Assembly (NCBI GenBank): GCA_026874595.1
Contig: CM049314.1
Span: forward strand, 68,258,300-68,322,299
Source of the DNA: Sipunculus nudus
Taxonomy: Eukaryota; Annelida; Sipuncula; Golfingiida; Sipunculidae
Direction of reading: 5' to 3'
Length of the DNA stretch: 64,000 nt
Shown here piece after piece: positions 42,201-51,200 of the stretch (within the stretch, counting starts at the first letter, position 1; each line of letters opens with the position of its first letter). A program made the translations under genes and the position numbers. Below the pieces are notes generated by a model. It worked only from the letters and a program-made list of their open reading frames with translations, made no database searches and was not told where the DNA came from.

Positions 42201-45200
42201 GAAAAAAAAAACTATAATAGTGTTTTGGGCACCCGTAAGCAGCAACATCTATAATAATGCAAGGTATAACATGTTTATGGGTAGCCCTGTATGGTAAAAA
42301 AACTATAACTGTAACAGAACATGTTTTGGGCATTCCTGAGTGGATAAATCTAAAACAGTGTAATATGATACATTTATGGGCACCAAAAATATGAGAGAAG
42401 TAAAACAACGTAACATATTTTTAGGCGCTCTTAACAGGAAAGACCCTTTTACAATTTAATATCAAATGTTTCTGGAAACCTATTGCACAGGTCATAATTC
42501 AATGGAAATACATTTATACTACCTACATTCATTAATTTTATAATTCATCAAAGTTCAGAAATGTTTAAGCTTTCAGTAAGTTTTATTGCATTTGAGTAAT
42601 AAGAAAACACATGCATTCTTACATCAATTTGGCATATAAATAGAATTATAAATTTTGATGGCATTTTACATATATACAGACATTGCTTCTTTCATTTTGA
42701 ATATTTGTATGTATGACCATATCTTTCAGTCAAAAAATATTAAAATAAAAACTTTTTGAAAAGGGATTCCTATTCTGAATCATGAGATATTTATTGAAAA
42801 TAAAATTGTGATAATCAGATAAATCACCACCATTTATTTCCTAAATAATTATAACTAACCTGAAGATCAAATCAACTAACCATTAATGTCAAATTCAATA
42901 CCCATCATGTTTTAAGGTCTAAACATGATTAAAAAAAACTAATACTAGTATTTGAAAATAAATGTTATCATGTATAAAAAGAACAGCCTTTGAACTTTGA
43001 CCTGCATAAATTAAATTCATAATCCTACTTGCAGGTCTCTCATGCTCTCACTGATAAACCTCATTATCATAAAATATGCATCCCACCACCATGAAATACA
43101 AAAGCAAACATGCTTCTCACTATATTGATAACTTCTGTTGCTACTTTCCCTATGGAATAATGTCGCTACAATTGCCAGATTGAATGCATGTTGAATAATG
43201 TTAATAGGTCTGAAGGAACAAGGCAGCAAGAGGATTAATTTGCTCCATTGCCTGCAGGGGGCAGCACAGGTATAGGCACAAAGTCATCATAAGTACATCA
43301 TATATACAAATATCTCACACACAATAAAACTTGTAAATGTGCCATAGTGGTCTGTGTGCCGAGGTTATAGGGGTCAAAGGGTCAAGCGTAGAAGCATGTA
43401 CTTACCAGGGTCACAAAGAGGTGATAAAAGATAAAATAGATTGCCACCAGGGGCGCCAGTTGCTCTCCAGTCTCTCGCATCGTTAAGTGCATGACTTCAT
43501 TCCAGCCTTTTTGTGTTAGAATTTGGAACATCGACATAATGGCCTGAGAAGAAGAGATTAGCAAATCCAAGTCTGAGCGGAGGTTAGTGGTTCGCGCGCA
43601 CCCTTACTAAGCGTGCAGGGTAAACCAGGTTTGCTGCCAGAACTGTCACAAACTTCATCACAAAAGGCAAGAAACTTTCATAAATTTGCATATGTAACTC
43701 TTTTAACCAATTAACAAATACACTTTTAATGATTATAATAGTAAGAGAATAATAGAAACCTTTTTCTCGCAAATCTGGATGATATTTAAATCAGGAAAAT
43801 GTGGAAATAACTTTTTTGAGTATAATCTTCCCAAAAATTGTTAAAAGATGACCAACTTCATTTCCATTAAATTTGGTATACATTATCCATTTGATCATAC
43901 TAAATGTATAATCTCCAGTAAAGAATTAAAACCATACAGAAATGATTTATTTGCCTCAAATACTATAGTGACAACAATCCTATTTTACCAAAAATTTCCC
44001 AAAGTTCAGCAATTTCCCCTGATATGTGATGCATCATAGGTAACAATTCTGACAGCTCAACTGTTAAAAAACCACATCCAGCAGTGAGTAAAACTGACAG
44101 GCTGATCAAGCAGAAGCCACATGAAGAAGCAGCAGTCAATCTGCAGCATGCTGTAAAACCAAGACCACATACTACTCTGTCACCAAGCTCTCCCTACTAC
44201 ATGCATATGTATATCTGCTGTGTTTCTGCGTTTAGAAGACCAATTACTGTAAATCATGTGTATAATACTAACACATGTATTTCACTTCAAATTACAGTAA
44301 ACACTTCTGTATAATTCCACAAAATATATTGAGCTTACACATACAGTAAAATTTCAAACAAGACCAGTATGTATTGAAAGTCCAAATACTGTAAATACTT
44401 GTGTATAAGACCACACTGAGCCGATGTTATTTTCATAAAGGAATCAACCTAATATTTGTTCAGCTGGCTAATGGCTGCTGAAATGTTTATATTTCAAAAA
44501 TGCAGAGGCCTGATCATTTGTTTAACAACAAACGTAAAAAAAGAAGAAGTCAGGACTTACGAAGATAGTTATAGAGTATGCATAATAAAAATATCACAGA
44601 TGTATTTAAAGAATGCAATAATATTATTTATTTATCACAAGCTGGCTACATGGTGAAACAAGTCAGCTCATGCATACATGATCTTAAAACTTGAGAAATA
44701 AATTGAAATTCAATGCTGTTATGATAGCCCCATTTACACTAGAAAATCTGGATCGACATAATGCAAATGTAGCTCATGACACAATTCTTCAAGTATTTAT
44801 TCTGCACTGGGATGACTGACCATTCAAACCACTTTAAACTGTTGTGATAGACTAGTAGTGTCATGGCTGGTCCAAAATTTGCCTCGCAATTCAAATGGAA
44901 ATCCAGCACAAACTTAACTTAGCACATGTAGTGCTGGACCGTGCTAGATCTAACACAGGTCGATCATTCCAGATTTAGCTTGTTTGCTTTATTTTCCAAT
45001 TAAATACAAAATTCAGCATGCTCCAACAACAGTCTAGCACATGTAAGAATCTAGACCAAATCTTAATCTTCTGGTTCAGTTTATAGACCACTCAAAACCA
45101 AAATCTAACATGTCCTGCCCAGATCAAATGCTTTAAAGAAATCTAGAGCCATCTAGATTTTGCCAGTAAATGGGGCTAATCATTGCATATTCTTATTTCC

Positions 45201-48200: not shown

Positions 48201-51200
48201 GATGGTAGCAGGAGTTTTCTTTTTGTTTCAGTTTATAATAGGATGGTAGCAGGAATTTTCTTTTTGTTTCAGTTTATAATAGGATGGTAGCAGGAGTTTT
48301 CTTTTTGTTTCAGTTTATAATAGGATGGAAGCAGGAGTTTTCTTTTTGTTTCAGTTTATAATAGGATGGTAGCATGAGTTTTCTTTTTGTTTCAGTTTAT
48401 AATAGGATGGTAGCATGAGTTTTCTTTTTGTTTAAGTTTATAATAGGATGGTAGCAGGAGTTTTCTTTTTGCTTCAGTTTATAATAGGATAAAAGCAGGA
48501 ATTTTCTTTTTGTTTCAGTTTATAATAGGATGGTAGCAGGAGTTTCCTTTTTGCTTCTGTTTATAAAAAGATGGTAGGAGTTTCTTAACCATTTATTGTA
48601 TGTTTCTCATTATGGGTGAAGAAATTTTGTTTTTGTCAATTTCATATATAGGATGGAGACAGGAGAATTGTAGCTGGAAAAAGTCACATGATGATGGTAC
48701 AAGAGGCTTGGTCTTCCAGGCCTGGCCATAAAATGAACACCTACCCCAATCATTAGAATATGATATATAATGAACAGAGGCTGGACTAGCCACGGCAATA
48801 CTGTGCATCCAGAGTGTTCCTCCACGGCCTTGGTGGTGAGGTGTACGATCTCCACCCAGCCTTCTTGCGTTAAGATATTAAACACGCACATGAAAGCCTG
48901 ACGAAAAAACAGAAAGAAACACAGACATACTAACTAAACAACGAAGCACAATGTAAAACACATAAAAAACTCAAGGATGCTAAATTATATGTCATCTTAA
49001 AGTGTGACCAGAACTGCAAAATATAATAAAAAAGACACTGAATTGCAGCTGCTCCACAAGGGAAAAATAAAAATTCACTCACTCCAAAGAAAAAGTGATA
49101 CAAAATATGAAATTATAATAAAATGCCAATTTTAAGATACATATAATAATCATAAGAAGATTTAAGCCTTTTCAATAGTGATGTATGTATCATCTGGAGA
49201 GTGAAACATTTCTCATGGGGAAACAACATATAATATTTTATGGATTATAGGGAAGTGACAAAATTATGATTCCTTAAGGACTGGTTTTTATTGATAACAA
49301 ATATAATTGTGAATTTCTTAGATAATTCTGGGGTAACATACACATACAATAAGTACATATTTTGAGAAATACAGAAAGAATTTTGACATTTGATCAGTAT
49401 GACCTTAATTAAATGTAACTCCATCAAAAAGCCAGGCAACAGGTTTCACAGTACTTAGCATGAAGAAGAGGAAAAAGGAAAGGGTTGATATAGTGAAAAG
49501 CCATCCAATGATTACAGCGAAGATACAGTAGAAACTGATGTGAATAAGAGAGAAAAAGCTTAAATGTTACAATGTATAAACATCATGATGGTTAGTCTTT
49601 ATCCTACACTTAAGAAACAACTCACAGACTCGAAAGACAATAAAAGCAAACAAAAAAATAATAAATAAGCAAATGAATTTTATTTTCAGGAAAAGCATAG
49701 AAGCAGCCAATTCAATAAAAAAAAATAAATAAGCTTATTTTAAAGAAATATAATTGAACATAAAAAAAACAGTAAAAATAATATATAACACAGTAAAATA
49801 ATTTATAGCAAGGCTCAACCAAATGGGAGCCTAAAGCTAAAAAAACACAACAGGCCAACCAAACTCTCAAAGCCTGGGACTTGCTTAGCATTTATTTTAT
49901 CCTTTTTAAAATTAACTGAATAACTAATCAAAATTTTAATTATGACATTTGTTGATTTTTGAAAACATTAAATAATTTTAGAGTTATTATGCAAGTCCTG
50001 GCCAAGAATCTGAGGGCCAAGTGAACAAACATGGCATCAGGGAGATGCAGGGTTGGCAAGCTGACCTTGACCTTAAGCAGTTTGACCTTGACCTGACTAG
50101 GCTGGCCAAGGTCAATTCAGATATATAGTAAAGAGACATAGACCATGCCAGTAAACGTTACCATTGTTTTCATAAATACAAGATTCTCAAGATACTCATC
50201 TATGCAGATTAATTTATTTCTGACTACTTAAAGTTAAAATCCTGAACACTTAAATCAAGTATACTGATGAATATAAAATATCAGTATATGAAAGTTTTAA
50301 TATAAGTATCACTGAAAATAACTTTTGAATGAAATTCAATATTTATTCCATCAAAAATGTTATTGGATTTAATATTCATTTGTACTTTGGTACTATAAAT
50401 ATATTTGTACCTTCTTTCTTGTGTGTTTAGAAATGAACTGCATGGGAACAATGGAGTCATGCACATGCATACTGTTGTAATGTATTCATACTTTAATTTA
50501 AACAATACATGAGATAAACAGTGGAAAACATTTTGATATCAAGAATATATGTTGTCAAACAATTCCTGATAGAAAATGAATATAAGATGAAAGGGGCCTA
50601 TTCAAGTATCTGGTGTCAATTACCTAACGATATAATCCCTTAAACCTTTTATAAAAATACAATACACCAATCTGTTTGTTTTGTTTATATCCAAGTGTTA
50701 AAGCATGTGGGGGTCCAACCTAAATAACCCAAACAAATTCAACAAGGACATCTTTCAGCAATTGAGACAGATAAACCAGAGTTTTGAAAAGGGTGTTTTA
50801 CAACTAGAGCCCTTTCAGCTTTCACATAACTGCAACAAATTATCTCAGGCTACAATTTTTCTTTTTGCTGCATGTACCAGTACCATGTTTCATTACAATG
50901 TGTAGAGAAACAAACTCATGCATCCATTATAGAGGTGTTTTAAGAAGATTTCTGAACAGGAAATACCTACAGATCTCAAATATGTAGATAGTGTAAACAA
51001 AATCACTTACAAAACATTCTACCAAAAAGGTAAATGAATAGGAAGCTTTAATAATAAAAAATTTCAAAGTTATCATTTTCATTTTTCAACATGTTTGATC
51101 AAGTAAAAAGAGATACAGCAAAACAAAAGCTTTCTCCATCAGAGGATTAATATTTGTTAATTTTTTATGTGTCTTTTCAAATTTTTAAAAAGGTACAGAC

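Follow-up and report, generated by a model that had tools for sequence, protein, structure and literature searches.

The closest described system is the duplicated domain II pore exon of the leak channel NALCN. In the available portions of their paper, Senatore et al. (2013) describe an exon 15a, with glutamate (E) in the filter, upstream of an exon 15b, with lysine (K), in flatworms, molluscs, annelids, echinoderms and hemichordates, and report that the E exon is lost in Schistosoma and Helobdella (PMC3557258); the EKEE filter of annelids is also stated in the available part of PMC10120453. The Lymnaea isoforms were sequenced from cDNA, and the currents of the snail isoforms expressed in HEK cells were indistinguishable from background leak; these authors noted that the stretch from pore helix 2 to S6 varies in sequence, and held that the differing functions of the isoforms likely rest solely on the filters (PMC3557258).

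Three other systems are related to this one, as far as the available text of the respective papers goes. The arthropod NALCN exons 31a and 31b belong to the same family and follow the same logic, with E upstream and K downstream, but they are located in domain III (PMC3557258). In molluscan Cav3, splicing of exons 12a and 12b in the domain II pore is likewise tied to sodium versus calcium preference, but this is another gene, and what is swapped there is the S5-P turret, which precedes the filter (PMC4436565, PMC10120453). The filter of human NALCN consists of E280, E554, K1115 and E1389 (PMC7672056); vertebrate NALCN belongs to the same family and these four residues align with the exons described below, but the vertebrate channel has one fixed EEKE filter, with the lysine in domain III (PMC7672056, PMC7712781).

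The window, that is, the whole stretch of 64,000 nucleotides that was analysed, corresponds to C9:68258300-68322299 of a 1.43-Gb assembly. Exons were placed by scanning the window with a vertebrate NALCN sequence and with a relative, P0003; in both scans, the succession of NALCN exons runs from the domain I pore, at about 59.2 kb, through to the C-terminal region. The host gene of both domain II pore exons is NALCN, on the minus strand, with the following features.

59106..59249, minus strand: domain I pore segment; filter Glu at human E280; matches human NALCN 268-314
53089..53220, minus strand: e6, domain II S5 exon; 132 nt, ends in phase 0, donor CAG|GTAAAT
48745..48897, minus strand: e7E, Glu-filter pore exon (exon 15a type); 153 nt, 51 aa, phase 0
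48862..48864, minus strand: filter codon GAA of e7E; Glu aligned to human E554
43406..43543, minus strand: e7K, Lys-filter pore exon (exon 15b type); 138 nt, 46 aa, phase 0
43508..43510, minus strand: filter codon AAA of e7K; Lys aligned to human E554
40670..40744, minus strand: e8, remainder of domain II S6; 75 nt, begins in phase 0; placed by both NALCN scans
28505..28621, minus strand: domain III pore segment; Glu where human NALCN has K1115; matches human NALCN 1092-1128
19043..19138, minus strand: domain IV pore segment; filter Glu at human E1389; matches human NALCN 1368-1399

The assignment to NALCN is supported by several lines of evidence. The best PDB matches of all five pore segments tried are NALCN chains, the named best-scoring protein homologues among the matches listed are NALCN, and the four-domain channel sequence is nearer to NALCN than to Cav or Nav. 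In a NALCN tree of 25 rows, from which Owenia was left out, the S6 motif being absent from its model, and in which the Ixodes row is just 30% filled, the window sequence forms one group with P0003, P0123, P0020 and Capitella teleta (100/98); this placement, with Capitella as the one named member, makes an annelid origin likely. The N-terminal half of domain I lies just outside the window, on the same strand, where residues 30-274 of P0123 match C9:68325393-68336046; the N-terminal exons beyond the window are known as matches only, not as assembled exons. UNC-79, the partner of NALCN in its complex, is also present in the genome, with nine matches that all fall within C3:26165040-26179416.

Outside nematodes, cnidarians and sponges, NALCN is described as a single-copy gene in the available part of PMC10120453. 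In the assembly search (25 candidates scored), all 10 matches of P0123 at E <= 1e-5 belong to one NALCN locus, so a second, E-only gene like P0123 in the same genome was rejected. P0123 itself, a divergent model of NALCN type, has an E-type exon in domain II and SQEAW at the domain I filter; it is 60% identical to P0003 over 751 positions, appears as the sister of P0003 on a long branch, and perhaps represents an additional NALCN gene, restricted to the E form, of another annelid-like genome.

The order in the transcript is e6 (S5), e7E, e7K and e8 (S6), with E upstream and K downstream. The introns, all GT-AG, are 4191 nt (e6-e7E), 5201 nt (e7E-e7K) and 2661 nt (e7K-e8) long. The filter motif is TQEGW in e7E and TQKGW in e7K, and in all six frames of the window, the pattern TQ[EK]GW occurs at these two sites only. 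The joins of either exon with e6 and e8 keep phase 0 and contain no stop, so that the two are interchangeable in phase. In the PDB search, e7E matches domain II of human NALCN at residues 543-585 (E 3.4e-5), with its Glu on residue 554, and e7K matches residues 543-588 (E 2.2e-17). In the 1.43-Gb assembly, the sole match of e7K at E <= 0.001 is its own locus (E 1.7e-24; three candidates scored). Among the relatives, e7K is 98% identical to its counterpart in P0003, e6 is 87% identical to that model over 53086-53223, and e7E is 69% identical to its counterpart of equal length (51 aa) in P0123. No further exon-15 copies in the window appear among the tblastn matches.

The splice edges are acceptor TCTTTCTGTTTTTTCGTCAG and donor GGG|GTAGGT for e7E, and acceptor TGCTAATCTCTTCTTCTCAG and donor CTG|GTAAGT for e7K. 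The donor consensus is MAG|GTRAGT, which e7K matches in 8/9 positions and e7E in 6/9, the joint lowest value among the 10 donors scored.

These results confirm what the original prediction observed, namely, two phase 0 domain II pore exons located between e6 and e8, with correct coordinates and a swapped length of 46 (e7K) to 51 (e7E) residues; the strand, which it left unstated, is the minus strand. Its description of the splice sites of both exons as good is fair for e7K, and the donor of e7E is modest. The attribution to NALCN domain II, EEEE versus EKEE pores and the exon 15 switch of Senatore, Spafford and colleagues is backed by the sequence, the homologues and the trees. In contrast, the suggestion that the flanking architecture might be new is not supported, because the order of E upstream and K downstream and the limits from the pore to early S6 are already in the available text of PMC3557258.

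Like exon 15a/15b as presented there, the window pair is a duplicated domain II pore exon, with E first and K second, that extends from the pore helices to early S6 and gives EEEE or EKEE; unlike that material, it comes from another species and is known here from DNA, and the difference in rate between its two exons is put into numbers below. The pair matches the published one in every feature that could be tested, and annelids are already covered by the accessible text of PMC3557258. The arthropod arrangement is different, in that the duplicated exon here is that of domain II and the sole domain III pore exon found has Glu; the tblastn matches in the window include no other pore exon of that domain, so the exon 31a/31b duplication was not encountered.

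The gene is very probably a NALCN that carries both of the known alternative pore exons, 15a (e7E) and 15b (e7K), of which a transcript would usually include one. Given the Glu in domains I, III and IV and E or K in domain II, the isoforms would be EEEE and EKEE. Inclusion of one exon per transcript would produce a pore with a calcium-like filter (EEEE) or a sodium-like filter (EKEE), so that both channel types would be made from one gene; the calcium-like versus sodium-like conduction is predicted from the filter letters. What the locus adds is a likely annelid case of one leak-channel gene with two domain II filters offered by splicing, together with one modest evolutionary addition.

This addition concerns the rates at which the two exons evolve. 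Pairwise identity was computed for eight two-exon taxa (the window, Lineus, Octopus, Biomphalaria, Elysia, Tegillarca, Saccostrea and one Rotaria), with the other two-exon rotifer models left out and most of the exons taken from gene models. The E exon has a mean identity of 40.9%, compared with 77.2% (K exon), 78.4% (e6) and 92.0% (e8). It falls below the K exon in 28/28 pairs; the pairs overlap in their taxa and are not independent. Within the molluscs, the values are 52.3% (E) and 81.3% (K), with E lower in 10/10 pairs. The contrast spans the exon: 62.5% versus 90.3% in the P1 helix and filter (E lower in 26/28 pairs), 32.3% versus 71.4% from the end of the filter to the exon end (28/28), and 41.4% versus 88.4% in the final 12 residues (28/28). 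The filter, nevertheless, is acidic in all eight E exons, with seven E and one D. The E exon of the Lymnaea EEEE protein P0019 is of the Biomphalaria/Elysia type. The lone E-bearing exon of amphioxus, priapulid, beetle, centipede, tick and fish has an average identity of 62.5-69.8% to the K exons and of 44.7-50.9% to the E exons, and is thus nearer to the former.

The K exon is the conserved form of the two, and the E exon a fast-evolving one that keeps an acidic filter residue. Given the low identity of the E exon outside the filter, the E isoform probably carries a different P2-S6 loop and early S6 in addition to the charge change. The filter letters of the Glu/Lys switch in the original prediction stand, but the switch has to be widened because e7E differs from e7K far beyond the filter letter. 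The rate contrast suggests that the E isoform is to be studied as a separate channel rather than as a point change and, set against the filter-only view in the available text of PMC3557258, amounts to a testable qualification of that view; no comparison of E and K exon rates was seen in the available portions of PMC3557258, PMC4436565 and PMC10120453. A further, tentative reading is that the two exons are not equivalent options distinguished by filter charge: the K exon would represent the conserved leak-channel core and the E exon a fast-evolving module in which the acidic filter and the general fold are retained. The EEEE channel would then be lineage-specific, with its own P2-S6 loop and S6 start and perhaps different gating or partners, and in annelids the E exon might even owe its present form to exchange with the K exon.

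The origin of the E exon was addressed with trees of chosen exon peptides, which comprise 47 columns and include long branches, on which the program warned. The K exons, e7K included, form one group in both trees, at support below the program's starred level: 20/20 rows in the 47-row tree, two rows of which are identical (89/86), and 15/15 rows in the 33-row tree (90/88). In the free trees, no single group unites the E exons. It is unlikely, in our view, that the annelid E exon arose later, by copying of the K exon and return of its filter to Glu, or that it is an old 15a partly overwritten by the K exon. The residues HLT after the filter are common to e7E, e7K and the Capitella K exon and are absent from the compared mollusc E exons, and a tree in which the annelid E and K exons make up one clade is not rejected (p-AU 0.114, log-likelihood 6.69 lower). 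However, the fit is better for a single clade of all E exons (1.62 lower, p-AU 0.168), which is likewise not rejected; both results come from the 33-row tree and, given its 47 columns and long branches, are weak. The free trees, subject to the same long-branch warning, place e7E with P0123 and the Lineus E exon, apart from the K exons, and the E-first order in the window is the same as elsewhere.

The status of e7E as a functional exon can be questioned on other grounds. It is just 41% identical to e7K, its donor is weak (6/9), E exons evolve fast, and the available text of PMC3557258 describes other lineages that have lost exon 15a, so e7E might be a decaying relic, with the K exon alone in use, as in Schistosoma and the leech Helobdella, which lost the E exon. 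This is quite improbable given that e7E is open over 51 codons, retains both splice sites and keeps the E, G, W and early S6, and that the relative P0123, from another contig, has the same 51-aa form, 69% identical, spliced to S5 and S6 in its gene model.

Returning to the preferred reading, of two alternative exons with usually one per transcript, exon choice would be a matter of splicing regulation. The joins e6-e7E-e7K-e8 and e6-e8 are open as well, so frame does not impose exclusion. Both exons have 3n lengths and phase 0, are 5.2 kb apart and are flanked by GT-AG introns; frame, spacing and splice-site class, therefore, do not enforce the choice, and from this a regulated splice choice is suggested. 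Specifically, steric exclusion is not favoured because 5201 nt separate e7E and e7K, U12-type introns are not favoured given the GT-AG ends, and frame-based decay is not favoured given the 3n exon lengths. RNA pairing was set aside as a possible enforcer; the 12.6 kb searched yielded one weak inverted repeat (24 nt at 83%), with one arm in the e7K-e8 intron and the other in the e7E-e7K intron. The motif TGCATG does not occur within 400 nt on either side of e6, e7E, e7K and e8.

Exon usage was surveyed in 171 fetched NALCN homologues, seven of which lack the S6 motif and were unscored. The E exon alone is found in 136/171 models (by the names shown, mostly arthropods and fishes) and the K exon alone in 17/171; both occur in nine, as E then K (5/171) or D then K (4/171), in Lineus, Biomphalaria, Elysia, Tegillarca, Octopus and four bdelloid rotifer models. 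Neither exon was scored in 2/171, with a skip directly seen only in P0096. Errors of gene prediction may account for the models that join or skip the exons, but among those with both exons, the ones from Lineus and Biomphalaria carry the name isoform X2. In the bdelloid models (P0136, P0146, P0147 and P0171), an upstream exon with an Asp filter (NDGW) precedes the K exon, giving EDEE/EKEE.

It is very improbable that the exons are not mutually exclusive and that transcripts often hold both or skip both, with two or zero domain II P-loops: the corresponding joins are open in the window gene, and tandem inclusion in 9/171 models and neither exon in 2/171 point the same way, but gene predictors readily join in-frame exons, the two-exon chain would place a second P-loop and half an S6 within domain II, the Saccostrea models hold a single exon (E in X1 and X3, K in X2 and X4), and the snail cDNAs represent two mutually exclusive variants in the available text of PMC3557258.

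Several repeats were observed in and around these exons. The e7E-e7K intron contains a 41-bp tandem array at 47699-48577 (21.4 copies, 94% match), 167 nt from e7E, the units of which have an acceptor-like end (TTTCAG) on the plus strand and are A-rich on the transcript strand; as a speculation, an array of variable length at this position could affect splicing. A 42-nt stretch at 59275-59316 duplicates, at 83%, the first part of the domain I pore exon with its acceptor edge (59209-59250); this copy is located 66 nt upstream of that exon in transcript order, and its frame hits a stop. Other tandem arrays lie at 7596-8915 (25 bp x 53), 21501-22528 (278 bp x 3.7), 25744-26517 (30 bp x 25) and 31632-32049 (26 bp x 16). 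P0124, a gene model from another genome, contains numerous copies of the first part of the domain II S5 exon (e6), a pattern that resembles a minisatellite arising from this exon together with its acceptor.
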